64,000 bases of DNA. It comes from Ostrinia nubilalis (lineage: Eukaryota > Arthropoda > Insecta > Lepidoptera > Crambidae). Positions 690-63,819 of the stretch are shown piece after piece. A model generated the notes under the pieces. It did no database searches, had not been told where the DNA came from, and saw only the letters and a program-made list of their open reading frames with translations. Position 1 is the first letter of the stretch, and the number at the start of each line of letters is the position of its first letter. The DNA is taken from assembly GCF_963855985.1 (NCBI RefSeq), contig NC_087099.1:13484001-13548000 (forward strand). Direction: 5' to 3'. Both the position numbers and the translations under genes were made by a program.

Positions 690-931
690 TTAACTCAATT
701 TAATATAATTTCCTTCATGTGTCACTATATATTTTGGCGGTGCATGAAAATGGCTGCAATTGGCTTCTTTTATGGCTCCATCTTTATTCAATTTTATTTT
801 TGCTTTACACCCAGCATTCTTCTTTGAACAGTAATAGTTCAGAGAGCTTGCATTTTGTGAGTATGTAAACCCATTCATCATCAGCAGTGGCTTGCCTTTA
901 CTTGAGGGGATGAACTTGTACGACATTTTTC
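690..931 (-). CDS. mod(mdg4): mod(mdg4)-type alternative 3' exon, FLYWCH finger (minus 1)
   Basis: This terminal exon would supply the isoform-specific C-terminus of a BTB chromatin protein. The acceptor is tatagtttcag at 932 onward on the minus strand; GA completes the split codon and the frame runs K-MSYKFIPS to a stop at 690. Counting from that Met, the FLYWCH core is F20-T-Y22, Y31-Y-C33, C40 and H59-x-H61, a C-x6-C-x18-H-x-H ligand set, followed by PPKYIV and GNYIKL. The Met is internal to the exon and not a translation start. It is the duplicate of the exon at 2764-3005. Gene identity rests on the array of FLYWCH terminal exons, since no BTB exon is present. Confidence 0.88.
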
Positions 932-1681
932 CTGAAACTATAATTCGATTATAAAATAAATAACTAGGTACTTAGATCTAACTTTCTGACTACATTGGGT
1001 GTCACGAATTATTTGACGCGGGTAGTATACGTTCATTATGATTAGTATCATTTTTAGTGTTCCGTTGTCCTAACAAGGAACCCTTATAGTTTCGATATGT
1101 CTGTCTGTCTGTCCGAGGTTTTGCTTCCATACTAGTCTAGTCATGTAGTCGGAATAGGTTGTGTGATTCTTTCAGGCATTGCTTTTTCGCATGTTAACAG
1201 CACTATGGAACCGCTGGGAAGGGGTATCTTTGTTTAACAACTACCGTCGAAACTAATAGACGTAGATTAATAAATTTACATTCGTTTTGTAGAATACCTC
1301 AAATAATATTAATACAATGCAAATAAAACATACTTTAACGACCTGGTTTTTATTGTGTTAGAAAATAACTGAAAAAGAAGTGAAAAAAATATGTATTTTT
1401 CTAATTAAATCCATTCTTACTCCTTTATTTTAAAGAAACTTGTGTCTGTTTTCTACTTCTACTAATAGATAATTTTATTGGCTATCGCATGATATAAAAT
1501 ATTAGCTTATTAGATTAGTGTTAAGCTACCCACGCTGTCACTTGTTTTTGAAGGAAGAGGTGAAAACTAAAAATTAAAAACTTTAATCCTTGTAATTTTG
1601 TGAGAAATGAGTGAAGCCCCAAATTTGAAGTATATTGTGGTAACGACAGACAACTACGAACTGCGCGTGGCACGACACGTA

Positions 1682-2740
1682 GGGGAGACTGGGTACGGTT
1701 GAAACAATTTTGCTTTAATTGTCAATAATTTTGTTGTTTAATAACCAAGTGACGATTATGATACGTGAAATTGAAATTTGAAGTTTTAGCTATGATATGG
1801 CTGTATCATTATAGTTCCCGGGTTACTATTCATAGAAATATACGAAATTTAAAAAAAAAGAAATTTTGTTTCAACCGTCCCCATGCCAGGGGCGGTTGAA
1901 ACAGCGATTGGAATCTGTTGAAATACATACAAATAATACAAAAAGTACTAATAAAACGTGTTTTATTTATCATTAATACTACGAATATTAAAATTATGGT
2001 ACCACATGACGACATTAATCAGTCTAAGTATTTAATATTTCTAAAACATTAATTAGCCTTTGATAAGTAGTAAACATTTAAAAAAATAACAGAAATATGA
2101 TTAACTAAACGATATTTCCAAACCTAATAAACATTAATAATAAAATAATATTACCATTCTGAATAAAGTTAACGAAAATCTTTTTTTGTTTTCAAACTAT
2201 CCTTTTCCGCCACTTTCCGCAGTGAATCTCCAGCTTTTACCTCCTCTTATGCTTTACTAAGTCAATTTCCTCTCTGGAAATATTCCTTACCCAAACTCTC
2301 GGTATCTACAAAAAATAAACATTAATAAATTTTCTGTTTCAACCGTACCCACAAAAAATGTTTCAACCGTCCCCAACCCCACTTTTGGTAAAATATACTT
2401 TATAGTTTCGACACTAATGATAACACATTAAAAATAGTTACTGGACCTTATTCTACAAGCTTCATTTTAATCGCAAACGCACACTCGATACATTCACATA
2501 AAAAGAACAGGTAGTATAAGCGTTAATGTCTGAAGAAAAATACTTAGTTTTGGGTAGTAAAAAACAATATGGGGTTTTGCACACAACGTCAACGCGTTAG
2601 GAAGTTTTAGGCATTAAATTCGTGTTCGGACCTGTTGTCAGCTTCTTTTTCCCCTAGAACCCCTAACTCCTCGCGGAACCGTTTACGAGATATTTGCTCT
2701 GTTTCAACCGTCCTTTGTTTCAACCGTACCCAGTCTCCCC
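1682..2740. mobile_element. TIR DNA transposon (TA target), non-autonomous, 1059 bp
   Basis: The terminal inverted repeats begin ggggagactgggtacggttg and are perfect over about 24 bp. A TA flanks both ends (1680-1681 and 2741-2742). The duplicate unit at 1-960 shows the uninterrupted site cacgtacttg, which proves the insertion boundaries. Several gtttcaaccgt motifs recur inside. TA duplication suggests the IS630/Tc1/mariner superfamily. No transposase ORF is seen. Confidence 0.88.
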
Positions 2741-2763
2741 TACTTGGCCAGTTTTTTGTTATT

Positions 2764-3005
2764 TTAACTCAATTTAATATAATTTCCTTCATGTGTCACA
2801 ATATATTTTGGCGGTGCATGAAAATGGCTGCAATTGGCTTCTTTTATGGCTCCATCCTTATTCAATTTTATTTTTGCTTTACACCCAGCATTCTTCTTGG
2901 AACAGTAATAGTTCAGAGAGCTTGCATTTTGTGAGTATGTAAACCCGTTCATCATCAGCAGTGGCTTGCCTTTACTTGACGGGATGAACTTGTATGTCAT
3001 TTTTC
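2764..3005 (-). CDS. mod(mdg4): mod(mdg4)-type alternative 3' exon, FLYWCH finger (minus 2)
   Basis: The acceptor lies at 3006-3007 (ag on the minus strand), GA completes the split codon, and translation reads K-MTYKFIPS to the stop at 2764. Protein sequence is identical to the exon at 690-931 except Thr for Ser at residue 2, with zinc ligands C33, C40, H59 and H61. The upstream intron sequence is also duplicated. The 1059-bp transposon sits just beyond the stop codon, 23 bp away, so it separates this exon from its ancestral 3' untranslated region and polyadenylation region. Isoform expression may therefore differ from its twin. Confidence 0.87.
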
Positions 3006-3045
3006 CTGAAACTATAATTCGATTATAAAATAAATAATACTAGTC

Positions 3046-3809: not shown

Positions 3810-4048
3810 TTACATTTTTACATAAGTCCCTGACATTGTTTGATAATATTTTGGGGGCTCGTGTGTGTGATCACAATTAGCAATTACCACGTTCCCTTCT
3901 TCGGACAACTTCACGCGAGCCCTGCATCCCGCTCTCATCCTCCTCGAGCAGTAATAGTTCCTGCTTCTGTTATCCTTGCGATAAGTAAACCCGTTCATCA
4001 TCAGCAGCTGGGTTCCTTTAGAAGTCTGTATCATTGTGTACCACTGTC
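3810..4048 (-). CDS. mod(mdg4): mod(mdg4)-type alternative 3' exon, FLYWCH finger (minus 3)
   Basis: Acceptor aacttccag, then GA plus CAG TGG TAC ACA ATG: the exon starts QWYTMIQTSKG. From the Met the core is F16-T-Y18, Y27-Y-C29, C37 and H56-x-H58. The Cys-Cys spacer is seven residues (SRRMRAG), one more than in the exons at 690 and 2764. The tail is EPPKYYQTMSGTYVKM. The finger is more basic than the neighbouring left-end copies and is closest to the exon at 9182. Confidence 0.87.
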
Positions 4049-4106
4049 CTGGAAGTTAGAATCTTTCATCATTGATTAGAGTTAGAATAATAATTGTAAT
4101 TGTAAG

Positions 4107-4447: not shown

Positions 4448-4683
4448 TCACAACTTCACATAATCCCCTGCTTTCGTCACTAGATATTTTGGTGGAGGAT
4501 GAATGTGGTTGCAAATGGCGTCCTTTATGGATCCTCCTGCAGTTAGTTTTATTCTTGCTCTACAACCGTTGTTTTTCTTTGAACAGTAGTAGTTTAGGGT
4601 CTGAGCTTGTCGGAAATATGTGAACCCGTTCATCATCAGTAATGGTTTGCCTTTGGACGAGAGAATGAACCGGTACGATTGTT
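4448..4683 (-). CDS. mod(mdg4): mod(mdg4)-type alternative 3' exon, FLYWCH finger (minus 4)
   Basis: The acceptor attgttccag gives AA then CAA TCG TAC, so the exon begins QSYRFILSSKG. The core contains NGFTY, LNYYC, a GC six residues later and the final HIHPPPKYLV, ending GDYVKL. It founds a four-member paralogue group with the exons at 5347, 6983 and 7581, which share NHIHPPP. The first Pro of the usual FIPS is Leu here. Confidence 0.88.
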
Positions 4684-5346: not shown

Positions 5347-5582
5347 TCACAACTTCACATAATCTCCTGTTATCGTCACTATATATTTTGGTGGAGGATG
5401 AATGTGGTTGCAAATGGCTTCTTTTATCGCTCCTTCTGCAGTTAGTTTTATTCTCGCTCTACAACCATTATTTTTCTTTGAACAGTAGTAGTTCAGGGAC
5501 TGAGCTTGCTGTGAATATGTGAACCCGTTCATCATCAGCAAAGGTTTGCCTTTCGACGAGGGAATGAACCGGTACAATGATT
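5347..5582 (-). CDS. mod(mdg4): mod(mdg4)-type alternative 3' exon, FLYWCH finger (minus 5)
   Basis: Acceptor ctttccag, then AA, TCA, TTG, TAC: SLYRFIPSSKG. The ligands are the Cys of LNYYC, the Cys of NNGC, and the two His of NHIHPPP. It ends GDYVKL, one stop codon after the conserved Leu. The sequence flanking the stop (acttcacataat) is shared with the exons at 4448 and 6983, so the duplications included the 3' side. Confidence 0.88.
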
Positions 5583-6982: not shown

Positions 6983-7221
6983 TCACAACTTCACATAATA
7001 TCCTGTTTTCGTCACTAAATATCTTGGAGGAGGATGAATGTGGTTGCAAATGGCTTCTTTTATTGCTCCTTCTGCAGTTAGTTTTATCCTCGCTTTACAA
7101 CCGGAGTCTTTCTCTGAACAGTAGTAGTCCAGGGACTGATCTCGCTGTGAATATGTGAACCCGTTCATCATCAGTAAAGGTTTGCATCCTTTGAACGAGG
7201 GAATGAACCGGTACAATGGTT
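6983..7221 (-). CDS. mod(mdg4): mod(mdg4)-type alternative 3' exon, FLYWCH finger (minus 6)
   Basis: Acceptor ctttccag, then AA, CCA, TTG, TAC: PLYRFIPSFKGCKPLL. One residue (Cys) is inserted after the SFKG turn compared with the 4448 and 5347 copies. The core reads LDYYC, DSGC and NHIHPPP and ends GYYVKL. The one-residue insertion is shared in position with the exon at 7581 (Ser there), which supports a direct duplication between the two. Confidence 0.87.
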
Positions 7222-7580: not shown

Positions 7581-7825
7581 CTAAGGATATATCTTCACAT
7601 AATTCCCTGTATTCGTCACTAAATATCTTGGAGGAGGATGAATGTGGTTGCAAATGGCTTCTTTTATTGCTCCTTCTGCAGTTAGTTTTATTCTCGCTCT
7701 ACAACCGGAGTCTTTCTTTGAACAGTAGTAGTTCAGGGTATGGCCTTGCTGTGAATATGTGAACCCGTTCATCATGAGTAAAGGTTTGCTTCCTTTGGAC
7801 GGGGGAATGAATCGGTACGATAATT
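7581..7825 (-). CDS. mod(mdg4): mod(mdg4)-type alternative 3' exon, FLYWCH finger (minus 7)
   Basis: The acceptor tttccag at 7826 gives AA, TTA, TCG, TAC: LSYRFIPPSKGSKPLL, then MMNGFTYS. The Met at 7775 is internal, so the exon starts 50 bases before it. Ligands are in LNYYC, DSGC and NHIHPPP. The C-terminus reads GNYVKIYP, three residues past the usual stop because the ancestral stop region has changed. Confidence 0.87.
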
Positions 7826-9181: not shown

Positions 9182-9420
9182 CTACACTTTAACATAACGT
9201 CCTGAAGGTGTAATATAGTATCTCGGCGGTTCATGATTGTGATCACAGAGAGCTTCCTTCACAGCGCCTTCTGCAGACAACTTCACCCGAGCCTTGCATC
9301 CTTGAACTCTCCTCGAGCAGTAATAGTTCCAGCTTTTGTTGTCTTTGCGGAAAGTAAACCCCTTCATCATCAGCAAAGTCCCTCTGCGTGACTGAGACGG
9401 TATCATTATGTACGAATGAC
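9182..9420 (-). CDS. mod(mdg4): mod(mdg4)-type alternative 3' exon, FLYWCH finger (minus 8)
   Basis: Acceptor aaacttttag, then GT, CAT, TCG, TAC: HSYIMIPSQSRRGTLLM. The core is KGFTF, WNYYC with a true Trp in the FLYWCH 'W' region, then QGC, and DHNHEPPRYY, ending GRYVKV. The SRR turn replaces the usual SSKG. It resembles the exon at 3810 more than its direct neighbours. The stretch just upstream (about 9475-9790) is interspersed repeat. Confidence 0.87.
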
Positions 9421-9790: not shown

Positions 9791-10227
9791 AAAAGTTTAT
9801 AGTCAACTTACACTTTTATTCGCATCTTATGTAACATTAAATAAAATATTATTTTTGAAGATGGTTTAAAAATATGGATATGAAGAGATCAGTAATTTAC
9901 TTAAATATTTATTATGAATGTTTCAATAGAAGACCTACAGAGATACAAATAGAAGTTGCTATTAATAAGTACTCACATGCATAAAGCACATCACCTTCTA
10001 AAACATAAGACAGAAAAAATGGCTATGGAGAATTGGAGATACCATTATAAAATTAATAATGATTATTAAGGCAATATTCAACAGAATAGCACACAATTTA
10101 CAGAAGAATACATAGTATGTATGTTATTTACAGAAGAATATATAGTATGCATATTGCATATTAACGATGCCGAGACCTACGTTAAAACTTTTCGTAACGC
10201 GCTTCAAGCGTAAGATATTTTTATTTT

Positions 10228-10463
10228 TTACATTTTAATATATTGTCCCTTAGGTGTCCTGTAGTATTTCGGGGGTTCGTGCGTGTGATTGCAGTTGGCT
10301 TCTCTAACTTCCCCGTCTACCGACAGCTTCACTCGGGCCTTGCACCCTGACATGATCTTCGAGCAATAGTAATTCAGAGTTTTTCTGTCTTTATGAAATG
10401 TAAACCCGTCCATCATCAGCAAATGGTTGCCTCTGGCTGTCGGTATCATCGTGTAGTTTCGGC
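10228..10463 (-). CDS. mod(mdg4): mod(mdg4)-type alternative 3' exon, FLYWCH finger (minus 9)
   Basis: Acceptor ctttcag at 10464, then GC, CGA, AAC, TAC, ACG, ATG: RNYTMIPTARG. The core is MDGFTF, LNYYC, SGC and NHTHEPPKYYR, ending GQYIKM. A tttatt (AATAAA on the minus strand) lies about 15 bp beyond the stop. First of a four-copy tandem set with 10652, 11055 and the pseudoexon at 12091. These share intron sequence such as gaagatggataaaaatatgg. Confidence 0.88.
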
Positions 10464-10651
10464 CTGAAAGTTTATAATTGTCAACGTAACATCTTATGTA
10501 ACATTAAATATAAGATTATTTAATGAAGATGGATAAAAATATGGATATGAAGACATCAGTATAATTTACTTTTAAAATTTATTAACGACACGTGACTTAA
10601 CAGAGCTGTAATTCACATTTGACGTCTCGCGACATTTGAGATATTGTTTTT

Positions 10652-10887
10652 TTACATTTTAATATATTGTCCGGTGGGTGTCCTGTAGTATTTTGGGGGT
10701 TCGTGCGTGTGATTGCAGTTCGCTTCTCTAACTTCCCCGTCTGCCGACAGCTTCAGCCGAGCCTTACACCCCGACAGGACCTTCGAGCAATGGTAATTCA
10801 GACTTTTCCTGTCTTTGTGAAATGTGAACCCGTTCATCATCAGCAAATGGTTGCCTTTGGCTGTCGGTATCATCGTGTAGTTTCTGC
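10652..10887 (-). CDS. mod(mdg4): mod(mdg4)-type alternative 3' exon, FLYWCH finger (minus 10)
   Basis: Acceptor aaactttcag, then GC, AGA, AAC, TAC: RNYTMIPTAKG. The core has MNGFTF, LNYHC, SGC and NHTHEPPKYYR. The residue before the first zinc Cys is His where most copies have Tyr. It differs from the 11055 copy at only a handful of positions and shares its flanks, including gacgtctcgcgacatttgag on the 3' side. Confidence 0.88.
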
Positions 10888-11054
10888 CTGAAAGTTTATT
10901 TGTCAACATAAAATCTTATGAAACATTAAATATAAGATTATTTATTGAAGATGGATAAAAATATGGATATGAAGACATCAGTACTTTTCATATTTATTGA
11001 TTACACTTAACAGAGCTGTAATTTGACGTCTCGCGACATTTGAGATATTGTTTT

Positions 11055-11290
11055 TTACATTTTAATATATTGTCCGGTAGGAGTTATATAGTATTTTGGG
11101 GGTTCGTGCGTGTGACTGCAGTTCGCTTCGATGATTTCCCCATCTACCGACAGCTTCAGCCGAGCCTTGCACCCTGACAGGATCTTCGAGCAATGGTAAT
11201 TCAGACTTTTCCTGTCTTTGTGAAATGTGAACCCGTTCATCATCAGCAAATGGTTGCCTTTGCGTGTCGGTATCATCGTGTAGTTTCGGC
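11055..11290 (-). CDS. mod(mdg4): mod(mdg4)-type alternative 3' exon, FLYWCH finger (minus 11)
   Basis: Acceptor aaactttcag, then GC, CGA, AAC, TAC: RNYTMIPTRKG. The core is MNGFTF, LNYHC, SGC and SHTHEPPKYYI, ending GQYIKM. Compared with 10652 it changes A to R in the turn and has IIEANCSH in place of VREANCNH. Upstream (11438-11830) a LINE 3' end separates it from the broken fourth copy. Confidence 0.88.
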
Positions 11291-11437
11291 CTGAAAGTTT
11301 ATTTGTAAACATAACATCTTATGTAACATTAAATATAAGATTATTATTGCTATATAATTAGCTTGTAATACTTTCCCTACGACATCAAACTTATAAATAG
11401 TGATAGCAGAAGAAAGAAAAATGTTGTTCCTGCAGCT

Positions 11438-12090: not shown

Positions 12091-12333
12091 TTACATTTTA
12101 ATATATTGTCCGGTGGGTGTCCTGTAGTATTTCGGGGGTTCGTGCGTGTGATTGCAGTTTGCTTCTCTAACTTCCCCGTCTACCGACAGCTTCAGTCGAG
12201 CCTTGCACCCTGACAGGATCTTCGAGCAATAGTAATTCAGAGTTTTGCTGTCTTTGCGGAATGTGTATTGTGTACCCGTTCATCATCAGCAAATGGTTGC
12301 CTTTGGCTGTCGGTATCATCGTGTAGTTTCGGC
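12091..12333 (-). pseudogene. mod(mdg4): Frameshifted FLYWCH exon (fourth copy of the 10228 group)
   Basis: The acceptor (ggcctgaaag on the plus strand, boundary 12333/12334), the RNYTMIPTAKG start and the 3' half (LNYYC, SGC, NHTHEPPKYYR, stop at 12091) are all recognisable. A 7-base gain inside the exon near 12267 (plus-strand tgtgtattgtgtac, a near-tandem repeat) shifts the frame between MMNG and the FTF/YTF motif. Removing it in thought restores the domain, so this is a broken copy and not a divergent exon. Without correction the zinc ligands are out of frame with the splice site. Splice site and flanks look intact, so decay is recent. Confidence 0.85.
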
Positions 12334-14094: not shown

Positions 14095-14369
14095 TCAGTA
14101 GAAGTATGACGCGTCCTCGTGGACCGAATCTCCAAGTTGCAGAGGATGGAGATGCTGCTGCATATATTTGATCCTTATTTGTGGAGGATCATGTATATGG
14201 TTACGCTGGGCTCGTATCACCTTCCCGTCCGAAGCCAGTTTGAGTCTAGCCTTGCATCCTCTGGTCCTATAAGTGCAGTAATAGTTGGAGCTCCGGTTAT
14301 CCTTGGCGAACCTGAAGCCGTTCATCAGGAGCAACGGATGTCCCCTCATTGATGGTATCATAGTATACC
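14095..14369 (-). CDS. mod(mdg4): mod(mdg4)-type alternative 3' exon, FLYWCH finger (minus 12), altered tail
   Basis: Acceptor tatccctcag, then GG, TAT, ACT, ATG: YTMIPSMRGHPLLLMNG. The core is NGFRF, SNYYC, a GC after TYRTR, and NHIHDPP. After the last His the usual KY(x)V/GxYVK ending is replaced by about 30 unrelated residues rich in His and Gln ending DASYFY. This looks like loss of the ancestral frame or stop downstream of the finger. The zinc site itself is complete. Confidence 0.83.
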
Positions 14370-14833: not shown

Positions 14834-15069
14834 TTACACTTTGATGTAATCTCCTCTAGGTGATATAATATACTTTGGTGGATCATGCGTGTGCGCAAAG
14901 TCCCCGTGCACGATAACCCCCTTTTCGTCCATTTTGAACCTCGCCTGGCACTTTCTCAATCTACTCGAACAATAATAATTACGGCTTTTACTGTCCTTAG
15001 AAAATGTGTATTCGTTCAGCATTATTAAGTGGCTTCCTTTCTTCGTGGGGATCATTTTATAGGTATTAC
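14834..15069 (-). CDS. mod(mdg4): mod(mdg4)-type alternative 3' exon, FLYWCH finger (minus 13)
   Basis: Acceptor acatttcag, then GT, AAT, ACC, TAT, AAA, ATG: NTYKMIPTKKGSHLIM. The core is NEYTF, RNYYC, RKC and AHTHDPPKYII, ending GDYIKV. The second ligand motif is K-C where most copies have G-C. It groups with 16309 and 17065, which share the NYYCSS and HGD/FGD features. Confidence 0.88.
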
Positions 15070-16308: not shown

Positions 16309-16547
16309 TTACATCCTGATGTACTCCCCTGTTTCAGTTACTAAATAATTAGGGGGGCTGTGTATATGTTGAATATCCCCAAAGATGATTTTCCCCGATG
16401 CGTCCAGCTTGAACTTAGCGCGACAGCCTTTATGTTTGCTCGAACAATAATAATTGTTGTACTGACTGTGTTTAGAATACGTGTAGTTGTTTACCATCAT
16501 CACGTGGTTCCCTTTTCTTGTAGGGATTATTCTGTAGGTTTCCTCGT
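16309..16547 (-). CDS. mod(mdg4): mod(mdg4)-type alternative 3' exon, FLYWCH finger (minus 14)
   Basis: Acceptor gcgaattgcag, then AC, GAG, GAA, ACC, TAC: EETYRIIPTRKGNHVM. The core is NNYTY, NNYYC, KGC and QHIHSPPNYLV, ending GEYIRM. The Met upstream at 16560 lies in the intron and is not the start. Closest relative is the neighbour at 17065. Confidence 0.88.
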
Positions 16548-36303: not shown

Positions 36304-36366
36304 TAGATGCGACACTGGTGGAGGCAACTAGGGATAACCCATCACAGTCATATACTTATTCTGCAG

Positions 36367-47105: not shown

Positions 47106-48102
47106 AAAAATACTGTCTAAGGTCTGTAGCTAAAGGTCTAAGCTGTAAGATAGAAGAATCTTCTAGCCAAAGAGATGGCAGATGCAGCAGATGTCAACGG
47201 ATTTAAAACTGGAGTTCATATGACTCCTTGTAGACTTGAGTCTCTAGAGCGTCCCTTCCTCCACCATGCGTAAGAATGTTTCAAAAATACTGTCTAAGGT
47301 CTGTAGCTAAAGGTCAAAGCTGCAAGATAGAAGAATCTTCTAGCCAAAAAGATGGCAGATGCAGCAGATGTCAACGGATTTAAAACTGGAGTTCATGAGA
47401 CTCCTTGTAGACTTGAGTGTCTAGAGCGTCCCTTCCTCCACCATGCGTAAGAATTTTCACAAAAATACTGTCTAAGGTCTGTAGCTAAAGGTCTAAGCCG
47501 TAAGATAGAAGAATCTTATAGCCAAAAACATGGCAGATGCAGCAGATATCAACGGATTTAAAACTGGAGTTCATGTGTATCCTTGTAGTTTTGAGTCTCA
47601 AGAGCAGTGGTTCTTAACCTTTAAGTCATGAGGGACCATTTTACCAAATTTCTGTCTTGTCAGGGACCACCTCATAATCGGTCAAAACCAGTTTGACTGC
47701 AAAAATCAGTTAAAAGTGGTTTTGACCAAGGTGTGCAAGTGCACATCGTGGACCACTTGGAATGCCTCCAGGGACCACCAGTGGTCCGCGGACCACCGGT
47801 TAAGAACCACTGCTCTAGAGCGTCTCTTCCTCCACCATGCGTAAGAATGTTTCAAAAATACTAAGGTCTGTAGCTAAAGGTCTAAGCTGCAAGATAGACG
47901 AATCTTCTAGCCAAAAAGATGGCAGATGCAGCAGATGTCAGCGGATTTAAAACTTGGAGTTCATGTGACTCCTTCTAGACTTGAGTCTCTAGAGCGTCCC
48001 TTCCTCCACCATGCGTAAAAGTTTTCCAAAAATACTGTCTGAGGTCTGTAATAAAAGTCTAAACTGCAAGATAGAAGAATATTTTAGCCAAAAACATACT
48101 GT
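47106..48102. repeat. 177-bp tandem satellite inside the TTAA element
   Basis: Units start at 47106, 47283, 47461, 47853 and 48027 with aaaaatact(gtctaagg) and contain gatggcagatgcagcagatg and cttcctccaccatgcgtaag. The third unit is lengthened by a 208-bp hAT MITE. The last is partial. Confidence 0.9.
47605..47812. mobile_element. hAT-type MITE, 208 bp
   Basis: Ends cagtggttcttaacc and ggttaagaaccactg. 8-bp flanks ctcaagag and ctctagag differ at one base. Neighbouring satellite units show the uninterrupted site gtctctagagcgtc. Confidence 0.9.
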
Positions 48103-49445: not shown

Positions 49446-49687
49446 AAATCGCGTACGAATTCATACCGTCAACGCATAGCAAAAGGGATGTCCTTGTGGT
49501 AGAAAACTATACTTTCTACCAGGTAGCAGCCAGTCGGCGGTACTTCACTTGTACGAGACGAAGCTCTGCAAAATGCACTGCCAAGGTCCGCTTCGATGGC
49601 CATCAAAGGATCATCTTCTACGAGAACAGACACAACCATCCCCCACGACCACTCTTAAAAGTTAATGGAAGATACGTTAGACTATAG
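49446..49687 (+). CDS. mod(mdg4): mod(mdg4)-type alternative 3' exon, FLYWCH finger (plus 11)
   Basis: Acceptor cttggtttttacag, then AA, ATC, GCG, TAC: IAYEFIPSTHSKRDVLV. The core is NYTFYQ, RRYFTC, AKC and RHNHPPRPLL, ending GRYVRL. The last 40 residues equal those of the exon at 43029, and one extra codon (Ala) lies before the second Cys. The G of the turn (THGK) is Ser here. A TA-target transposon begins 6 bp past the stop. Confidence 0.88.
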
Positions 49688-49693
49688 GAAATA

Positions 49694-50879
49694 TCGTCAG
49701 TTGCAGGTTCACTTGGGGTAACTGACAAAATACGGTTTTTGAGTTAAATATACAGTTTTTCTTAGTTTTTTCTGCTCTTTCGAATGGTATACGTAAAAAA
49801 ATTCTAGCTTTAAAAAAATTACAATTACACGGACATTTTCAGGTGTGAACTTTTCAGATTTCCTTCACAATTTTGGTGTAACTGACATTGTAATAATTTT
49901 ACCAGGTTGAATTGGTGTATCTGTAATAATGTAAAAAATTTGCTACAAAACTTTGCAATTACACTGATTTGCTAAGGTTTATAACATGAAATAAAATAGG
50001 AATTTAGAAAGTGTTAAGACATATTACATTATTATTATACCAGCAGTATCAGTTAAAGAAGTTAAAGTTAGCTCAACAAAAAAAAATATTGCAATTGAGC
50101 AAACTATCCAGCCACTAGGCGTCACTGCGCGTTGCTAACATTAACCTGTTGTTACTCTGTTACTTTTACTGTTGTAGTACTCATGACCTTAATTTAACAT
50201 TGCTCTAAAGAGGTGGGAAATTAAATCCATTTTGTTTTCAGTTTAAGTTGCCCCGTAGAGCTAAATACGGTATTGGTAAGTCAAAGCTTAAAAAAATATT
50301 CAAATTAATTAGTTTCACAGTAATACTTTAGTAATTTCAATATTTCTGTCTTAAAAAAATTAAACACACATATTTTCTTGATTTTCGTGGCTTTTTTAAC
50401 ATTTTTTAATGAATAAAATAAAAGTTATTTCTAATAAAATTTGAAAAAAAAAATAAAGAAAACGACAAAATTTTATTTTTTTCATGAATTCTCTTATTTT
50501 TTAATACTTTTACATAAATTATACAGCAACTAAGTAACCAAATCCCAGAAAATCATCAAATTAATGTAACTTTGGGCAGTACTTACACCAATTTGACCTG
50601 TGTTTTTTCCAAAAGTGTGGTCTAAAATTAGTGTAACTGTCAAAAGTACAAAAATACATTGGTGTAACTGCAATTTATTTCCTTAACTAAGACATATTAG
50701 ATAATTCTTTTTATTTAATCTAAAACCGCGTAGAATTCTAAGCATTTCTGTAAAAACAGATCCAAAAAAGGTTAAATAGGAAAAAAGTTATGTCCGATTT
50801 AAGACGAAAAAAAACTTTAAACGGCTCTACTGAAAAACTGTATTTTGTCAGTTACCTCAAGTGAACCTGCAACTGACGA
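49694..50879. mobile_element. TIR transposon, TA target, 1186 bp
   Basis: TIRs of about 50 bp start tcgtcagttgcaggttcact. TA flanks (49692-49693, 50880-50881). The interior repeats ggtgtaactg-like text several times. No transposase ORF. Confidence 0.86.
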
Positions 50880-50883
50880 TATA

Positions 50884-51348
50884 CAGGTTGGAATTTTGTA
50901 ATGCCACCTGGAGGGAAAGTACTCTTAATACTGTAGATAGAATTTTTTCCTCAAAGAAAACATTCTTTTATTTTTGAAAAGAAATGGAACTGCATTCAAA
51001 TATTTACAAAAATTTGCTTGTTACTCCCGGGAATCGAACCAACTAAAATCTGTTAAAAATTTCACCCTGTATTTTTATTGCATGGATCGTTAGGGTTAAG
51101 TTAAGGATGATCTCTAACAAACTTGATAAATCAAATGAAAGGAAATCCATGAAATCTTAAATTATTTTAATTATTTACAGAAAATTTTATGGTATGGTGG
51201 TAAATTTTCAAAAAAATTTGGAAATCTTTAATGCAGTTCTCTTTTTTTTTTCAAAAATAAAGGAATGTTTTCTTTGAGTAGAATTTTCTATCTACAATAC
51301 TAAGAGTAGGTACTTTCCCTCCAGGTGGCATTACAAAATTCCACCCTG
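50884..51348. mobile_element. TIR transposon, TA target, 465 bp
   Basis: TIRs cagggtggaattttgtaatg (left end caggttgg) run about 90 bp as mirrored arms (agtactcttaatactgtaga and its complement). TA at 50882-50883 and 51349-51350. It is inserted directly beside the previous element. Confidence 0.86.
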
Positions 51349-51743
51349 TATATAGGTTCCGCTCTACCTGTTTGTCACTGCCACTCATACTGATAACTCA
51401 TTTTGCTAAAAAATGGAAACATCGCAAACTACGGACATGCGGACAGTGAGTAGCCCCGCTGAAATGCACGATAATAAGGTGACATAATCAGTATTATCTG
51501 TGGTATTATTATCCATAATAAGTTATACAGGGTGTTTGGCGGAATGTTAGACATACTTCGTGGGTGTATAGATTTTTAGATAATTTCAGTTGATTCCATC
51601 AACTGCTAACCAAGTGCAGGCACCTATTTCTTTTTGTAAATAAATTTTCTTTCACCTAAACCTGGATATTACCTACTCATAAAAACATTGTAATTTCGTT
51701 TTATTTAGAAAGAAAAAAGAAATAGTTTAAATAAAGTATTTTT

Positions 51744-51962: not shown

Positions 51963-52213
51963 CACTCCACTACGAGTTCATTCCCTCCACCCATGGCAAG
52001 CACTCCATCCTCAAGATTGAGAACCATACCTTTAACCAAGTGACGTCAGATGGGAGATATTGGAGCTGCTCTAAAAGGACTTCCACCAGGTGCAAAGCCA
52101 GAGTCCGTTTTGACAGCACATGTCAGAAAATTGTGCTGTATGATCGAGTGCATACCCATGAGCCGAGGAAAGTCCCGAAGACCAACGAAAATTATTTTGC
52201 TTTTAATTGTTAG
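51963..52213 (+). CDS. mod(mdg4): mod(mdg4)-type alternative 3' exon, FLYWCH finger without internal Met (plus 12)
   Basis: Acceptor ggttatcatttcag, then CA, CTC, CAC, TAC, GAG: LHYEFIPSTHGKHSILKI. The core is NHTFNQ, RYWSC (Tyr-Trp-Ser-Cys), TRC after SKRTS, then VHTHEPRKV, and a C-terminus NENYFAFNC before TAG at 52211. There is no Met in the frame, so start-based gene finding would miss it. An aataaa is at 52222. It is a paralogue of the exon at 54287 (same NHTFNQ and THEP/THEL). Confidence 0.86.
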
Positions 52214-52570: not shown

Positions 52571-52809
52571 GACTATCCTACGAATTCATCCCTTCAGTTC
52601 AGGGGAAGCATCCTATCCTGGTGCTGGACAGCCACACCTTCAACCAGGTGACCTCAGACGGGCGAAACTGGTATTGTTCCGGGAAAACTTCGACCAAATG
52701 CAAGGCGAAAGTCCGTTTTGCCGGGAATAAACTAGTGTCTTACGAAAACTACCACAACCATCCGCCTCGTAATCTCATTAAGGTCAACGGGAAATATTAT
52801 AAAGTGTAA
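52571..52809 (+). CDS. mod(mdg4): mod(mdg4)-type alternative 3' exon, FLYWCH finger (plus 13)
   Basis: Acceptor aaagtaacttttcag, then GA, CTA, TCC, TAC: LSYEFIPSVQGKHPILV. The core is SHTFNQ, RNWYC, TKC after SGKTS, and YHNHPPRNLI, ending GKYYKV. The stop TAA overlaps an aataaa (52808), so the 3' UTR could be very short. Confidence 0.88.
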
Positions 52810-54286
52810 ATAAAGATGGCGGGTGAGAAAGAAATTGGTTGTGTCTAGGCCAGCTATTCAAAAGAGATTATTAGTTATAGAGAATTTGGAGTAAGGTAGA
52901 TAAAACAAACAACTTACAAGATTTCTTGCGCTCAGAAATGTCGTGTCAAACCGCGTCGCCAGAGTAGGTTTAACTTCCTAATTATTATACAAAGTAAGTA
53001 TGTAGGTACGTGTATATTTAAGCTTAAACATCCACAGAACACTTTGTGGATAGGAGTATAATTTCCAGTCGATTCAATGAACTGATAAACATGTGTACCT
53101 ACCTGTTTTTTTAAATAAACATTTTTAGAGTAAACATGGATATTATTTCGTTTGAAATAATTCAGTTTTATAATACAAGACGAGCTTTATATATTATAGA
53201 AAAAGACATAATCCCATCAAAAACAATACTTGTCAAAAAAACCAAGTCTCGCAACTCAGTTGTTCTACGGTATAAAAAGTTGTGAGATCCATGTAATACC
53301 AAGTCCAGGCCAGGAAATCTTTAACGTTTTACATAAATTATTGACTTGGCCATCGCACTAAATAATTTAATTTACACGTGTTTTCATGCGATGGCCAAGT
53401 CAATATATTTATGTAAAACGTTAAAGATTTCCTGGCCTGGACTTGGTATTACATGGATCTCACAACTTTTTATACCGTAGAACAACTGAGTTGCGAGACT
53501 TGGTTTTTTTGACAAGTATTGTTTTTGATGGGATCTCATTTCTTTTTGTATTTTGTAGACAGCAGTTATGTATCTAGAAAACTGGACCGAAATTTAAAAA
53601 TTTTACTCGACTTGGCTGGGACACTACCGTGCGCCTTTATATTTATATGGTATTACAAAGTTATTTAAGTAAGTTTAAGTAAGTAGTTAAAAATTTATAA
53701 AACTGGACCGAAATTGAAAAATTTTGCTAGACTTAGCGGTTGCACTACCGTGCCCCCAAATATTTTAGTTTTTCCTTAATTCATACACCAAACACTACTT
53801 ATATTCCAAATTTGAAGCTTCTAGGTCTGCTAGAAGTGCCTTAGAATTTTGATGATCGGTGAGTCAGTCAGTGAGTGACAAAATTAAGAAACTTTGACCC
53901 GTTATAATTCTTAAACTACTGGTTCAAATTGAATGAAATTTGAAATATACCGTGTCTTTACAATGCCTGCATAGCTAATGAAAATTCAGCCTTCTAGTTT
54001 TATCCACAACGAAGTTACAGGCGGTCGAAAATGGCCTCAATTGCTTCGAGAAAAGGATGGTACGGCCGTGCCGCTTTTTTGCTCGACGATAATACAAGAA
54101 AAAGACATAATAAAGAACATTTTGTAGAATTTTTAACCTATAGCATTCTGTGCTATAGCTTCACACCTGGTTGATCACACAGCACATTATCGTTTCCAAA
54201 TCCAGACGTAGGTATATCCGCAGAAAACTCTCTGCTATCCAGATTGAAAATCCAGGTTTTATAACCAGTGCAGAAATTATTTTCAG
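52810..54286. other. Intron with long palindrome and a repeat block
   Basis: Apart from the palindrome (53211-53534), 53575-53900 contains two similar blocks starting aaaactggaccgaaatt and a stretch cttctaggtctgctagaagt of a common repeat. No exon was found. Confidence 0.55.
53211..53534. repeat. Near-perfect palindrome, 147-bp arms
   Basis: Arms 53211-53357 and 53387-53534 are complementary almost base for base, with a 29-base loop (aaataatttaatttacac centre). Outer ends atcccatcaaaaacaatact and agtattgtttttgatgggat. Probably a foldback transposon. A transcript would form a long hairpin. Confidence 0.9.
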
Positions 54287-54543
54287 AAATCCATTACAAG
54301 TTCATTCCATCCACCCACGGCAAGCACTCCATTCTCAAGATTGAGAACCATACCTTCAACCAGTTGATGTCGTCAGATAGGAGGTACTGGACCTGCTCTA
54401 AAAGGAGTTCCACCAGGTGCAAAGCCAAGCTCCGGTTTGAAGACAACACATGTAAGAAAATTGTGCGGTACGATCGAGTGCATACCCATGAGCTGAGGAA
54501 CAAGAAGACCAAAAGTTGTTTTGGGTTTGTTAATGTTAGTTAG
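54287..54543 (+). CDS. mod(mdg4): mod(mdg4)-type alternative 3' exon, FLYWCH finger (plus 14)
   Basis: Acceptor attattttcag, then AA, ATC, CAT, TAC: IHYKFIPSTHGKHSILKI. The core is NHTFNQ, RYWTC, TRC, then VHTHELRN, and a tail with KTKSCFGFVNVS. The first zinc pair and the His pair are both present. It is the close paralogue of plus 12, and the tails (…FAFNC and …CFGFVNVS) diverge after the second His. Confidence 0.87.
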
Positions 54544-55178: not shown

Positions 55179-55405
55179 GTATTGGCTACTCGTTCGTCCC
55201 TACACTGCACGGTAAAAACTATTTGCTCAGCATCGGCGGACACACCTTCAACCAAGTCAAGAGGAGCACCCGGTACTGGTGCTGTTCCCGAAGGATCTCT
55301 CGAGGGTGTCCCGCCAAAGTCACGTTTGACAAGTTCCAGAATGTCATCAATTATGAGTTGGCTCACAATCATGAGCCGAAAGTACCTTATTTGACACATT
55401 GTTAA
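55179..55405 (+). CDS. mod(mdg4): mod(mdg4)-type alternative 3' exon, FLYWCH finger (plus 15)
   Basis: Acceptor ttccttattttcag, then GT, ATT, GGC, TAC: IGYSFVPTLHGKNYLLSI. The core is GHTFNQ, RYWCC (a Trp-Cys-Cys version), RGC after SRRIS, and AHNHEPKVPYL, ending THC. The tail is short; no conserved GxY(V/I)(K/R) ending is present. Confidence 0.87.
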
Positions 55406-55787: not shown

Positions 55788-56110
55788 ACACCACAGAAAC
55801 GGTGGAATACTACATAGAGGCAGAAGACGATGCGGACGATAGCGAAGTGCCGGTGTTCGTCGAGTCTGCTTCAGGACGACTGCTGGTAGAATACAAAGGG
55901 CATAGATACGGAAAAAGATACAAGTCCAAGCGAGGTACTCGGTGGGTCTGCTCCATCAGCCGGCAGTGCAACGCGTTCCTGCTCCTCAATCATCAGGATG
56001 AGATCATCTTGGGCAACACGGTGCATGAACACGAAGCCCCGACGCGGATTGACACGATGGACGAGGATCAAAACGGTAAGTCCGTGCATTTATTGAGATA
56101 TTCAATGTAA
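55788..56110 (+). CDS. mod(mdg4): mod(mdg4)-type alternative exon, FLYWCH finger with acidic lead and internal donor (plus 16)
   Basis: Acceptor attgttcgcag, then AC, ACC, ACA, GAA: TTETVEYYIEAEDDADDS, an acidic lead of about 25 residues unlike other members. The finger is GHRYGK, RWVC, RQC (shorter spacer), and HEHEAPTRI. The frame ends after NGKSVHLLRYSM at 56110. However, a consensus donor (aaaacg|gtaagtcc, 56074/56075) lies before that stop in phase 1. It would join directly to the acceptor at 56410. The exon may therefore be terminal or internal. Confidence 0.83.
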
Positions 56111-56409
56111 AAGATTAAGTTTCCCAAAAATTTCACAATTTTTTTCACCCCATATTCGTAACCTTTTCACTTCTTAAGTCCTAGTGGTTGACGGACCGAA
56201 TAGCTAAACCTTAGTACTGATTTACCCAGGTTTTCTTGTAAAATTTTGAAACGATTTCATCCATCTTTCGTAGTTTTTGTACTCCTGTAAATCCTCCATT
56301 GTCTTCTGGTAATAAATAGGGGGGTCTTGGAGCCTCTAGGAGGGTGTTTTTCCAGCGGATTTAAATGACCTGCTATAAAAGTCCTTTACCAAATTATTTT
56401 ACTCCACAG

Positions 56410-56681
56410 ACACGGCAGTGGTGATCACCTCGCGCAAAGGCAAAGAGATGTTGCTCTTCAGGCAATACACTTATCGAAAGCAGTACGAGAAGTTCAACAG
56501 ATCCCGCTGGGTGTGCTCCAACCTCAAGAACTGTCGAGCAAGCGTGTTCACAGACAATAACAACTACATCACATCCGTGTATGAGCAACACTGCCATCCC
56601 CCTCCTAAGTACTACCGCAATCCTTCTAATGTTATTGGAGCGTTGAGGGAACCGCTGATCGTTGAAGAGATAGAACAATAG
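56410..56681 (+). CDS. mod(mdg4): mod(mdg4)-type alternative 3' exon, FLYWCH finger (plus 17)
   Basis: Acceptor attttactccacag, then AC, ACG, GCA, GTG: TAVVITSRKGKEMLLFRQY. The core is QYTYRK, RWVC, KNC after SNL, and EQHCHPPPKYY, where the His pair is H-C-H. The tail is NPSNVIGALREPLIVEEIEQ. It shares the RWVC and acidic/basic style of plus 16. Confidence 0.87.
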
Positions 56682-59068: not shown

Positions 59069-59310
59069 ACGCCGTAGTGGTAGAAGTGTTGTCAAAAAAA
59101 GGCCGGCCACTGCTACTGTACCAGAATTACACGTATGCTAAGTACAGCAACCCCACCAAGTTCGGCTGGCGCTGGTATTGCTCGAGGAAGAAAGGTTGTC
59201 GAGCCCACATAGTCACTACTACCGATCACGAGGTCCTGGCGATAGCAGGTGACCACAACCACGAACGTTTAGCCGAAGACTCCGTTGATAAGATCAATAG
59301 ATTGCTTTAA
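59069..59310 (+). CDS. mod(mdg4): mod(mdg4)-type alternative 3' exon, FLYWCH finger (plus 18)
   Basis: Acceptor aatttaacccttccag, then AC, GCC, GTA, GTG: AVVVEVLSKKGRPLLLYQ. The core is NYTYAK, RWYC, KGC after SRK (short spacer of five), and DHNHERLAEDS, ending NRLL. The final segment is acidic and lacks the Pro pair after the last His. Confidence 0.86.
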
Positions 59311-59696: not shown

Positions 59697-60821
59697 AGGT
59701 AGCATTCGGATCAAGACGACCGCGACGCGAGACCGCGACTCGAGACCGCGACCGGCGACCGCGACCCACTGCTTTATCAGTGTTGCCAGAAGGTTACTTT
59801 TGTAACCTTTTAGGTTACTTTTTAACTGCATTGGTTACTTTTAGGTTACACTAATGAAAAGGTTACTTTTAGGTGATTTTTCAAAAATAATTGTAGAATT
59901 AACTGTTACAGGTTATTTAATAAAAAATATTAATAGTGACAATTTAAAAATTATGTCATAAGTCATAACTGCATTTAAACATGAATTTGATTTATTATTT
60001 GTTAAAGAAAATGAGTGTTAGCGAATGTTTTTCGATAATAAAACGCAAATCCATGAAACGGTTTTATACGAGTATAATACGAACCTCTCACTTTTCGGTC
60101 TTTATGGAATGGTCAAAATTTCGAATTTAGGTAAACGATTGATGATGTGTACAATGAAACGAAAATGAATACAATTGCATTTTCCATTCATGAACAACAC
60201 AATCGCTCCGCACGTATGAAGGTTACTTTTTATGCTAAAAGGTTACATTTTTTTATATTTCTGGTAATTTCTGACAAGACCCCACTGGCAACACTGTGCT
60301 TTATATGAATTAATAGGAAGTGCTGACGGATGCAAGCGACCGAGTCGCGCGACGTGTGGGCGTGGCCTGCCGGCTACTTGCGTCGCGCGACTCGGTCGCT
60401 CACAAGGCAGTGCCGTGGCGCGACAGATGCAAAATGGCCGTGTTTTCTTCGCACGAAGACGAAATTTTAATAGAATTAGTAAGTAAAAACGCACCTGTAT
60501 TCGATACGAGACTTCAAGCTTATAAAGATAATACTGTGAGAGACAATATTTGGGAAAAAATTGGAAAAGCATTAAATAAAACAAGTAAGTTCAAATGATA
60601 CATATTTTTATTAGAAAAGGTACTTATTTTTATTGTTTACAGATGGATGGAATACAACCGTTTAGTTTAGTAACTGCAAACATACTGAGTTTCGTATGGG
60701 TCGCACGACTCGTGTCGCGAAGATTCGTAAGTAGCTGTCGCCCTGCGACCTGCGACCGGTCGCCGGTCGCGGTCTCGGGTCGCGGTCTCGCGTCGCGGTC
60801 GTCTTGATTCGAATGCTATCT
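59697..60821. mobile_element. Harbinger-like DNA transposon (TAA target), 1125 bp
   Basis: TIRs begin ag(g/a)tagcattcg(g/a)atcaag and run more than 60 bp through repeated gaccgcgac blocks. A 3-bp TAA flanks both ends (59694-59696, 60822-60824). The interior carries the start of a MADF-like gene. The GC-rich ends contrast with the AT-rich centre. Confidence 0.87.
60434..60598 (+). pseudogene. MADF-like DNA-binding domain, truncated, inside Harbinger element
   Basis: Within the element the frame from MAVFSSHEDEILIELV runs through FDTRLQAYKDN and VRDNIWEKIGKALNKT. This matches the first two helices of a MADF/Myb-SANT domain (family knowledge). It ends at a stop just after caagtaagt, a possible donor, so a downstream exon has probably been lost. 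Harbinger elements commonly carry such a second gene. Confidence 0.62.
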
Positions 60822-61595
60822 TAAGTGAAACCATGGCATATGATTGGTACTTATTTTATTCAAAATATCAAACTTTGATACAACATCGATTGTATAAACT
60901 AATTAGTAATTAATTAAGGGTACAGTCTCATTATAAAGAAGCTGCAAATTATCCAACGTACCAGTGTCTTCAGTATTGATAATTATTTTTTACAATAAAT
61001 AATACTTACAAATAAATGAGAAAAATATGTTCAGTGTTTCCATCTTATTTTATTACAATAGCAACATTGTTCATCGGTCCCTCCATTTTTCTTTTTAGGT
61101 ACATTTATTTAGATTTTTAAATTCTAAAATATTTGAACTGGCAGTAAAATAGACAAAATAGTAGACATAGGTACTTGGGTATGACATAAACAATTTATCA
61201 CCCTTTTCTTAAAAGAAAAAAAAAACAGTATTAAAATTATTTTCAAAATAAAGCTTAAATTGATAAAGAAAACAAAAAAAGTATTATTTCACACCAAATA
61301 TAAAACCAATTTAAAAATAAAACCTTAAATCAATAAATTGAGACAATTATTAAATTATCTAAGATGGCAATGAGTATTTTATCAGTCTTAAAGTAATTCT
61401 ATTATAGCTAAAAATTAATTACCATTAATTTTGCATCAATGCAACTCAGTCCTTAATATCAGTCTTAATTGTTTTTGTAAAAATATTAAGGTACTCAAAT
61501 CATGAGGTAGCGAGATAAATTATTCTTAATTGTTTTGTAAAAATATTAAGGTACATCATGAGGTAGCGAAATAAATTATCAGTCTTAAATTAAAA

Positions 61596-61849
61596 CTATA
61601 CAACTTTAAAAGACCCATCATTACGACGGTAAAATCCTGGAGCAGGGTGATTGTGAATTTTACGAACTCTCTTGATAATTTGTCCTTCTCGATGGACTTC
61701 GGTGGTAACATCTACATGACAGCCAGTCTTGGTGCGTGAAGTGCAGTACCATTGTTTTTTTCCGTATGCCAATTTGTTCTTCAACCGAAATGCAAAGCCA
61801 TTGTGGACTAACAGTAAGCTGCCCTTCCGGGTTGGTATGAAGTTTGCCA
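61596..61849 (-). CDS. mod(mdg4): mod(mdg4)-type alternative 3' exon, FLYWCH finger, isolated on minus strand (minus 18)
   Basis: Acceptor cctatttgttacag on the minus strand, then TG, GCA, AAC, TTC: ANFIPTRKGSLLLVHNG. The core is NGFAFR, QWYC, TGC after TSRTK, and IHNHPAPGFY, ending GSFKVV. The C2-to-H spacer is longer than usual. It is the only minus-strand exon right of 21 kb and is flanked by plus-strand exons at 59069 and 63551. Confidence 0.87.
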
Positions 61850-63550
61850 CTGTAACAAATAGGTATATATTTTTCAGTAAACATATAAACAAAGAAAAAC
61901 AACTATAAATCTAACTTAGATAAACTAATTTATCTATGAATGAAAACGGGAAAATAAAACGAAGAACCCATCAAATTTTTATGTTTATTCTTAGATGCCT
62001 TTAGCATGAAAAAGAGACAGCCAATTGAAGTGTGATTAATGAAATCTACTATCTAGGTACGTTTATCTCAAAATTTTCTTTAATGTTTATAATCACAGTC
62101 AGCCACATAAACTTATTAAACAGGATTGGCGCACAATCTTCAAAACTATAGGCTCATGTGGTAAACAAATCGAATTTACGTGTTCCACGTGTTTACTATT
62201 TGGTTTATAACTTCACAGCACTCATCACATCACTAAAAACGACTCCTCTAACGTTTTTGTTTAGTAATATTATTGTTTGATTGATCAATTAATTAATGAA
62301 ACATCTATTGTGTGTTACACTAATCCAGTCAAATAAATGAAGTAAACAGAAAAAAGAATGAACGAAAGGAATGATGTACGATGACGCTGACTGACGGACG
62401 CCGCCTCGGTTCGTCGTCCACAGATTACACAGACCTATCCAAAAAGACGCGCGCCCGCGCTGCCATCTCCGTTTCATTACGCACAATCACAATAGAAGCT
62501 AGTTTATACAAATTAAATTATTGCAAATAAAAATTTGCGTTTATTTTAATGTTCTTTTTTAGTTTGAGTTTTGAAAATAATTTATGATGAAGGAACATAA
62601 TTTAGTAACATAAAATTAATAACACAATTTTATTCATTTAGTTGAAAAGAAACGTAGTAACTAAAAGAAAGATTGAGATTTAATGAAAACAATACACCAA
62701 AATAAATTAGACCCTTAAAATGAAAACACTTTATGTAGGAAAAATAGTCGGCGCTAATTGGACAACGCGGCCGCGCTAATCCTAAACATCCAATTTAAAA
62801 AAATATATAAGTCAGTGTCAAAGTGACTTGTCAAGTTGTCATTCAGTTGTGTTACTACTTGTCGCATGTTTGTACGAAGAGAAAAAATGGAAGATTGTTC
62901 GATGGACATGTAATTAATTTAATGTTGAAGTGTATTTGACTTTAGTGGATGCAGTGTACGTTGTGCGTGTTAGAAGTGACGTGTAAATAAACATTCATTC
63001 CGTGATCCTTGGATAAAGTGCTGTTTTCATTGCTTGAAATACACGTCAAAAAGTGAACTAAGTTTCTGGATCAAAATTGCAAAACTTTTAAAGCTCATAA
63101 GTTACATAATGATAGCGTCCAATTACAGGTCCTTACTCGTAGAACTGGACCAGAAAACTTAGAATAGTAGTTTTAACTTTGTTTATAAATATTTCATGAA
63201 CTTTAGACAACAAAGCTACAATCACTAGTTTGGATCAACTTAACAATGTTTTACTATTCATTTATTCATTAGTTTAGGTATTTACTTATTTATGTTAACC
63301 AAAAATAAATGTTTTATGAGAAGTTTCTAAAATTATTTATACAATTACTAAACTACTAACTTATCAATTATGATTGCACTAACCTCTTAGAATTTTTTAG
63401 CAAAATCTCAACAGTTATAACTTCAGAACACACATTTATCATATTAAATAATTGTAACATTCTGTTGTTTTATTTCCCTTCACTGCCAACTTATTAGATG
63501 CTAAGTGAATATTATATTTTCGTTATCTTACATAAAATTATTATTTTCAG
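61850..63550. promoter_or_regulatory. Second divergent gap with candidate promoter near 62845
   Basis: This interval lies between the minus exon at 61596 and the plus exon at 63551, so transcripts of both can start here. A tatataa at 62804 is followed by an arthropod-type initiator ttcagttgtg (A at 62845). A partial DPE-like gtacg is at +28. A short open frame (MEDCSMDM, stop) begins at 62887. The candidate promoter would serve the plus exon. This is inference from motifs only. Confidence 0.35.
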
Positions 63551-63819
63551 GTATATTCATAAACACAAGAGGCAATTCCAAGTTATTTATTTACCAGAAT
63601 CACACATTTAGATTTATGTACAAAAAGGCATATGGCAGTCAGCTGTGGTACTGCTGGTATTTCTTCAGCCGGTGCTGTCCAGCGAAGCTCCGAATCAACA
63701 ATGCAGGAAAAGTTACCGAGAGCATAGGACGCCACAATCACGATCCACCAACCTGCTGGATGACACCGGACGGTAAATCGTACAGTCTTCCACCGTTACC
63801 CGATAAGAATTCACAGTAG
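63551..63819 (+). CDS. mod(mdg4): mod(mdg4)-type alternative 3' exon, FLYWCH finger (plus 19)
   Basis: Acceptor aattattattttcag, then GT, ATA, TTC, ATA: IFINTRGNSKLFIYQNH. The core is NHTFRF, LWYC, a CC after WYFFSR, and RHNHDPPTCWM, ending LPDKNSQ. An aataaa is at 63892. It is the last exon in the window. Nothing shows that the array stops here. Confidence 0.87.

Follow-up and report, generated by a model that had tools for sequence, protein, structure and literature searches.

Organization of the FLYWCH cassettes

The window, by which we mean the whole 64-kb stretch of Ostrinia nubilalis DNA analysed here, contains 37 intact FLYWCH open reading frames (ORFs) and one frameshifted copy. They were detected with our own HMM, which was built from 11 ORFs of the window and run against the 823 ORFs of at least 35 codons; matches weaker than E 0.05 were left out of the count. 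The Pfam FLYWCH family PF04500, which is independent of the 11 seed ORFs, matches all 37 intact exons, 35 of them above its gathering score, and the other two (7221-6983 with 20.4 bits and 63551-63819 with 22.9 bits) fall just below the cutoff of 23.6. The 37 cassettes are packed in 63 kb and extend to both window edges, 18 on the minus strand and 19 on the plus strand. When the strand labels are placed on the tree of the exons, 2 changes are needed, versus 12.5 and 12.7 after shuffling. Rfam and tRNA scans of the window gave no match.

A block of 17 minus-strand FLYWCH 3' exons lies within 690-20985, including 690-931 (two-base fill), 2764-3005 (the region of which is 97% identical to that of 690-931 across 298 bases), 3810-4048, 4448-4683, 5347-5582, 6983-7221, 7581-7825, 9182-9420, 10228-10463, 10652-10887, 11055-11290, 14095-14369, 14834-15069, 16309-16547, 17065-17312, 18304-18551 and 20747-20985. 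The frameshifted cassette (pseudo-exon) at 12094-12333 is in the same block; the HMM finds its two halves at 12333-12167 and 12279-12094, both on the minus strand, the remainder of the domain being in another frame, and neither half matches any Pfam family. The single minus copy within the plus block, at 61849-61596, is 88.5% identical to the Spodoptera model P0028 (61 aa).

The plus-strand cassettes span 25800-63819. The first seven are 25800-26164 with a long tail, 32542-32789, for which the closest relative is the Arctia model P0026, 33091-33449, 34187-34455 (also with its counterpart in P0026), the divergent 36304-36566, 36925-37202, which is conserved in models of Danaus, Arctia, Loxostege, Leptosia, Maniola and Spodoptera, and a short divergent cassette at 40109-40308, possibly decaying (tree branch 2.56). 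These are followed by 41582-41826, its duplicate 42262-42506 (93% across 639 bases of the region), 43029-43267, its duplicate 49446-49687 (88% across 360 bases of the region), 51963-52213, 52571-52809, 54287-54543, 55179-55405, 55788-56110, 56410-56681, 59069-59310 and 63551-63819. The first-pass annotation had counted 18 minus and 21 plus exons, two of all these being non-FLYWCH exons; the counts agree with ours if both non-FLYWCH exons are on the plus strand. One plausible case of the two was recovered, the candidate non-FLYWCH 3' exon at 40639-40853 (plus strand), which has a strong two-base acceptor (score 5.7) and 70 codons plus the split codon with 6 Cys, and shows no Pfam family above its cutoff; the second was not identified.

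Phase of the splice acceptors

The acceptor of each cassette was picked with a hand-weighted score that is blind to phase. A site leaving two bases to complete the split codon was chosen in 32 of 38 cases, a one-base site in 3 and a zero-base site in 3 (P = 1.4e-10 against 1/3). The two-base excess persisted among 28 clade representatives, 24 of which gave a two-base pick (P = 1.6e-8, or P = 2.8e-5 against the conservative background of 77/163), this background being taken from all 163 candidate AGs (77 two-base, 40 one-base and 46 zero-base). For each of the six exceptions, the second-best acceptor was a two-base site. These exceptions include 9182-9420, for which the two-base site in the register of its paralogues was taken, 10652-10887, where the blind pick is offset by 4 bases, 32542-32789, 52571-52809 and 54287-54543. 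The least certain acceptor position of all is that of 18304-18551. The two-base phase proposed earlier as common to the intact cassettes is thus borne out by 32 of 38 blind picks and, through the second-best acceptor, by the other 6. Among non-FLYWCH ORFs of at least 55 codons, 12 have two-base, 14 zero-base and 7 one-base sites; since two-base sites are not enriched in this group, a non-FLYWCH exon is not proven by its phase alone.

A k-mer comparison of both flanks of the 28 clade representatives detected no shared acceptor RNA motif beyond A/T-rich (T-rich) words near the random maximum; TTTTATTT is located upstream of 9 of the 28, the 95% level of the null being 8. Poly(A) signals were rejected as proof of terminal exons, being found within 500 bases in 36 of 38 cases versus 83% of random stretches, and so was AATAAA, present at up to 150 bases in 13 of 38 cases versus 30% at random.

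BTB fusions in related species

A tblastn search with the BTB common region of P0006 found no such region in the window (best E 2.7), in agreement with the earlier statement that the 64 kb carry no BTB exon. Searches with 13 of the 37 exons (7 minus and 6 plus) yielded 28 proteins of relatives; the 26 named ones are all from Lepidoptera. The best-matching species varies between exons.

Six of the 28 proteins contain a BTB domain. In all six, the common part ends with GGAVGDAQ, followed by one residue encoded by a GNN codon (G, G, E, D, E and E, respectively) and then by the cassette, indicating that the donor leaves one base, G. The BTB exon with a phase-1 donor, which the first-pass annotation had named as a check, was found in this form in 6 of 6 BTB proteins of relatives. 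Plus-type cassettes are joined to the BTB region in five of the proteins and a minus-clade cassette in one (P0025).

In P0006, the BTB region is followed by a C-terminus 97.7% identical to the plus exon 63551-63819; a second ortholog of this exon, 92% identical, is joined to the BTB region in P0007. With its 374 codons, the ORF of P0006 fills about 1,125 of the 1,252 bases of its contig, which is therefore almost certainly spliced RNA. Both P0006 (18.9 bits) and P0025 (15.0 bits) score under the Pfam cutoff in their FLYWCH parts. In the comparison of P0006 with solved structures, the matches listed were BTB domains, none of them of mod(mdg4) itself, and one scan each of collections of genome contigs and viral contigs found no relatives of P0006. 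The orthologs of the exons at 63551 and 33091 align with them from residue one onward, and here prediction and observation agree on the junction residue: G for 63551 in P0006 and P0007, and E for 33091 in the Papilio model P0009, which carries a 49% counterpart. For 55788 the predicted D matches P0010 and not P0014 (E), the first residues being unaligned there.

In total, three of the six plus query exons gave a BTB fusion in relatives, namely 63551, 33091 and the pair 56410 and 55788 (P0010 and P0014), and no such fusion was found for 34187, 36925 and 59069. An ortholog-level BTB fusion was found for none of the seven minus query exons (931, 4048, 15069, 16547, 17312, 20985 and 61849), the best match being 47.5%. 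This value belongs to P0025 of Pieris napi; the 15 best window matches of its BTB-joined cassette are all minus exons, to which it is a clade relative only. The database models P0009, P0010, P0014 and P0025 may be cis-spliced annotations.

The plus exon 55788-56110 contains an internal donor, ACG|GTAAGT after position 56075, in phase 1, and its counterparts are joined to the counterpart of the downstream exon 56410-56681 in both P0010 and P0014. From its sequence, this cassette could either be terminal or be spliced onward to 56410. For this reason not all cassettes are purely terminal: the earlier description of the array as terminal-exon cassettes needs correction for 55788.

Proposed joining of the cassettes to a BTB donor

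Taken together, we are confident that the window represents the acceptor part of a lepidopteran mod(mdg4) locus, with cassettes on both strands being joined in trans to a BTB donor outside it. The BTB fusions and the junction residues in relatives support the earlier proposal of a lepidopteran mod(mdg4) array of 3' exons. From the layout on both strands and the published cases we infer that joining takes place in trans and not in cis; separate transcription and the donor of Ostrinia nubilalis itself are likewise inferred. The common 5' exons, located outside the window, would encode the BTB domain and end with GDAQ and one G (phase-1 donor), and the cassettes would be transcribed apart from this donor, on both strands. 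The spliceosome would then join the donor in trans to a single acceptor, the donor G and the first two bases of the cassette forming a GNN codon, which is never a stop. The products would be BTB proteins that differ in their FLYWCH zinc finger. Prior chaining of some cassettes, as of 55788 to 56410, would be possible because the phase is unchanged.

A mod(mdg4) locus with cis-splicing only, the donor-strand cassettes being in use and the opposite-strand ones either silent or parts of other short genes, appears unlikely. It would account for the ortholog-level fusions being all of the plus type (P0006, P0007, P0009, P0010 and P0014), with none among the minus query exons, and for the frameshift in one minus cassette. 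However, open frames, acceptors and phase are retained in 18 minus cassettes, the Pieris napi protein P0025 carries a minus-clade cassette on the BTB region, and in Danaus mod(mdg4) opposite-strand acceptors are given for 33 of 40 isoforms (PMC4667647). That the cassettes are independent small FLYWCH genes or remnants of mobile elements, as might be suggested by the 22 of 28 retrieved proteins that are FLYWCH models without BTB and by repeats within the window such as 27014-27745 and 46384-47111 (98% identical), is most improbable, being largely refuted by the BTB fusions: the open frames start at splice acceptors of a single phase, and proteins of relatives fuse their counterparts to BTB in the same phase.

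The uniform G|NN phase might make the array an open docking system, in which any ORF behind a two-base acceptor may become an ending of mod(mdg4) and cassettes may be chained. The Cys-rich 40639-40853 and, with lower likelihood, the DUF4806 ORF at 19279-20120 would then be unrelated domains that the array acquired recently, and two FLYWCH fingers would be present in some of the proteins (55788 plus 56410). We regard this as a rather speculative extension.

Comparison with known trans-splicing loci

Arrays of this rare kind are already known, trans-splicing of mod(mdg4) having been published for other Lepidoptera and for flies, and the array described here leaves the known mechanism unchanged. 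As a compact and well-phased set of 37 intact cassettes and one frameshifted cassette in 63 kb, it is useful for comparing duplication, decay and strand change of cassettes, and also for finding marks of trans-splicing acceptors.

According to Kong et al. (2015, PMC4667647), mod(mdg4) trans-splicing was reported from RNA-seq for Bombyx, Danaus and Plutella, and mod(mdg4)-like trans-splicing was the sole event conserved across insect orders in their screen. The same paper gives 40 acceptor combinations for Danaus plexippus, 41 for Plutella xylostella and 9 for Bombyx mori, and RT-PCR confirmation of 14 of 18 Danaus isoforms (PMC4667647). As described there for the three species, the array is characterized by a BTB donor, mostly FLYWCH endings, variable exon combinations and tandem duplication of cassettes, and by acceptors on both strands, which for Plutella are stated only as possible (PMC4667647). 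The arrangement proposed here resembles Drosophila melanogaster mod(mdg4), in which common BTB exons receive about 30 alternative 3' exons, some of them encoded on the opposite strand, with independent promoters, but FLYWCH is found there in 26 of 31 isoforms (PMC12692577, PMC4667647). The FLYWCH duplications are described as separate in Diptera and Lepidoptera (PMC4667647).

The order of the cassettes was compared by placing 10 gene models against the window: 33091-36925-55788-56410 is kept in Danaus, and 36925-55788-56410 in Loxostege, Leptosia and Spodoptera. At Drosophila lola, a BTB donor is likewise provided with many alternative 3' ends, mostly C2H2 fingers and not FLYWCH. Trans-splicing, as proposed for the array, also takes place at lola, but is described there as inter-allelic (PMC4667647). 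The Danaus locus differs in extent, spreading over 550 kb (PMC4667647) in contrast to the 63 kb in which the 37 cassettes of the window lie, and the exon 56410-56681 shares 72% identity with the model from Danaus, a different species.

Inventory of the FLYWCH exons and phase of their acceptors

A profile made from 11 ORFs of the window was run against its 823 stop-to-stop ORFs (each of at least 35 codons), and 37 intact FLYWCH ORFs and one frameshift-split copy were identified, a few weaker matches (E > 0.05) being left out of the count. All 37 intact ORFs matched Pfam FLYWCH, 35 of them above the curated cutoff. The exons are hereafter designated by the window position where they start. The minus-strand copies span 690-20985, with a lone outlier at 61596-61849, while the plus-strand copies span 25800-63819. 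The limits of the array in the first-pass annotation, 690 and 63819, coincide with the outer boundaries of the two outermost exons, and so the array may continue outside the window.

For 38 ORFs (the broken copy represented by its first half), each AG between the ORF start and a point slightly beyond the beginning of the domain was scored with acceptor weights set by hand and blind to phase. The best-scoring acceptor left two bases for completion of the split codon in 32 ORFs, one base in three and none in three; the corresponding numbers for all 163 candidate AG sites were 77, 40 and 46. In the six exceptions (best picks at 9383, 10883, 18576, 32564, 52603 and 54274), the second-best site was always a two-base acceptor, in agreement with the single splice phase proposed at first pass, and a two-base site was chosen that keeps the register of paralogues or relatives. 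After merging near copies into 28 representatives, the two-base site was the best pick in 24. The acceptor of exon 18551 is the least certain of the set because it has no close paralogue. As a consequence of this selection procedure, all 38 exon lengths equal two bases plus whole codons up to the stop.

BTB fusions in relatives and the common donor

When 13 of the 37 intact exons were used as queries against 5.8 billion proteins, 28 distinct proteins were retrieved (15, 12 and 7 per query batch), six of which carry a BTB domain. The C-terminal ends of two, P0006 and P0007, are near-identical to exon 63551 (97.7% and 92%). The P0006 contig measures 1,252 bases, about 1,125 of them occupied by the ORF, and is therefore almost certainly spliced RNA; P0009 (Papilio), P0010, P0014 and P0025 are database models. 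For P0025, a BTB isoform of Pieris napi, the 15 best window matches were all minus exons (top 47.5%), and its ending groups with the minus-strand clade. Among the 28 proteins, no ortholog-level BTB fusion was detected for any of the seven minus query exons (0 of 7) or for three of the six plus query exons.

The shared portion of each of the six BTB proteins closes with GGAVGDAQ, and the residue after it is G, G, E, D, E or E, in every case one encoded by a GNN codon. From the window, exon 63551 is predicted to give G at the junction, 33091 E and 55788 D. The predicted G was observed in P0006 and P0007, and the predicted E in P0009, both with alignment from the first residue; for the 55788 counterpart, D was found in P0010, as predicted, and E in P0014, the first residues being unaligned there. 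The common donor in the relatives therefore leaves one base, G, in line with the phase-1 BTB donor anticipated in the first-pass annotation; the query exons that lack an ortholog-level fusion count against this.

The database record of P0010 is named modifier of mdg4, and the cassettes most probably represent the lepidopteran mod(mdg4) acceptor exons. Kong et al. 2015 (PMC4667647) describe trans-splicing of mod(mdg4) for Bombyx (9 combinations), Danaus (40) and Plutella (41); the Danaus combinations comprise 7 on the same strand and 33 on opposite strands, 37 of the 40 contain FLYWCH, and RT-PCR supported 14 of the 18 that were tested. The window thus represents a further instance of a kind already published. 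If acceptors on both strands serve one donor, those on one of the strands would have to be joined in trans, and we infer such joining for one strand of the cassettes in Ostrinia nubilalis.

Cassettes joined in series

Exon 55788 holds an internal donor, ACG|GTAAGT, after base 56075, leaving one base (G); exon 56410 begins with AC, and the join encodes D. The same order, 55788 counterpart, D and 56410 counterpart, is found in P0010 and P0014, and therefore some cassettes are non-terminal. The description of the cassettes as terminal exons must be amended for 55788, whose counterparts in these two proteins join onward. In P0009, D and the 56410 counterpart are preceded by a finger without clear partner in the window. 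Variable exon combinations are described for Danaus mod(mdg4) by Kong et al. 2015 (PMC4667647).

Evolution of the array

In a tree built from the 37 window exons plus nine relatives (84 columns), the 17 intact exons of the minus block were grouped with the Pieris and Galleria relatives (support 85, not starred), and the eight plus-strand exons running from 41582 through 55179 formed another group (support 92), while exon 61849 stood apart together with Spodoptera P0028. The strand label changed twice on the tree versus 12.5 (plus) and 12.7 (minus) times in shuffles, though the presence of near copies would by itself be enough to cluster the label. With 84 columns the fine branching is not settled, 21 of the 43 inner branches being open. 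Duplications at the DNA level were found between 41444-42067 and 42109-42747 (93% over 639 bases), 667-963 and 2741-3037 (97% over 298 bases), and 10213-10947 and 10639-11349 (90% over 735 bases).

Ten gene models were placed against the window. The order 36925-55788-56410 is preserved in the Danaus, Loxostege, Leptosia and Spodoptera models, preceded in Danaus by the 33091 counterpart, and also in Maniola, where a finger lying between 36925 and 55788 has 52571 as its nearest match. In the Arctia model the 34187 and 36925 counterparts occur in order; ahead of them lie two stretches, of which the first is nearest to 25800 and the second is the best match to 32542, although the greedy listing gave 56410 first place for the latter. 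The core of the array is therefore common to several lepidopteran families.

Other features inside the array

A Cys-rich ORF at 40639-40853 (+), of 70 codons plus the split codon and with six Cys, lies behind a two-base acceptor whose score of 5.7 is higher than that of the best site in 37 of the 38 FLYWCH ORFs. No Pfam family exceeded its cutoff (Tmpp129, 13.7 bits against 27), and no solved structure matched below E 0.2; it resembles the zinc ribbon at the C-terminus of piggyBac-like transposases, a likeness that Pfam does not support. Within the minus block, a 290-codon ORF at 19279-20151 (-) with a DUF4806 domain (64.6 bits) and a weak two-base acceptor at 20120 may represent either a gene of a mobile element or an unusual exon. 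A MADF/Myb-SANT-like exon at 60434-60584 (+) (26.3 bits), close to GC-rich tandem repeats, begins ATGGCCGTG and extends to a GTAAGT donor; it may mark the beginning of an unrelated gene within the array.

Two copies of a 0.73-kb repeat, 27014-27745 and 46384-47111 (+), share 98.2% identity, the highest among self-matches of the window over 200 bases. A 177-base tandem repeat lies in 47106-48097, with 2.8 copies (93%) in 47106-47605 and an additional similar stretch at 47813-48097. The segments 50879-51353 and 53163-53584 match their own reverse complements (71% and 89%) and are probably inverted-repeat elements.
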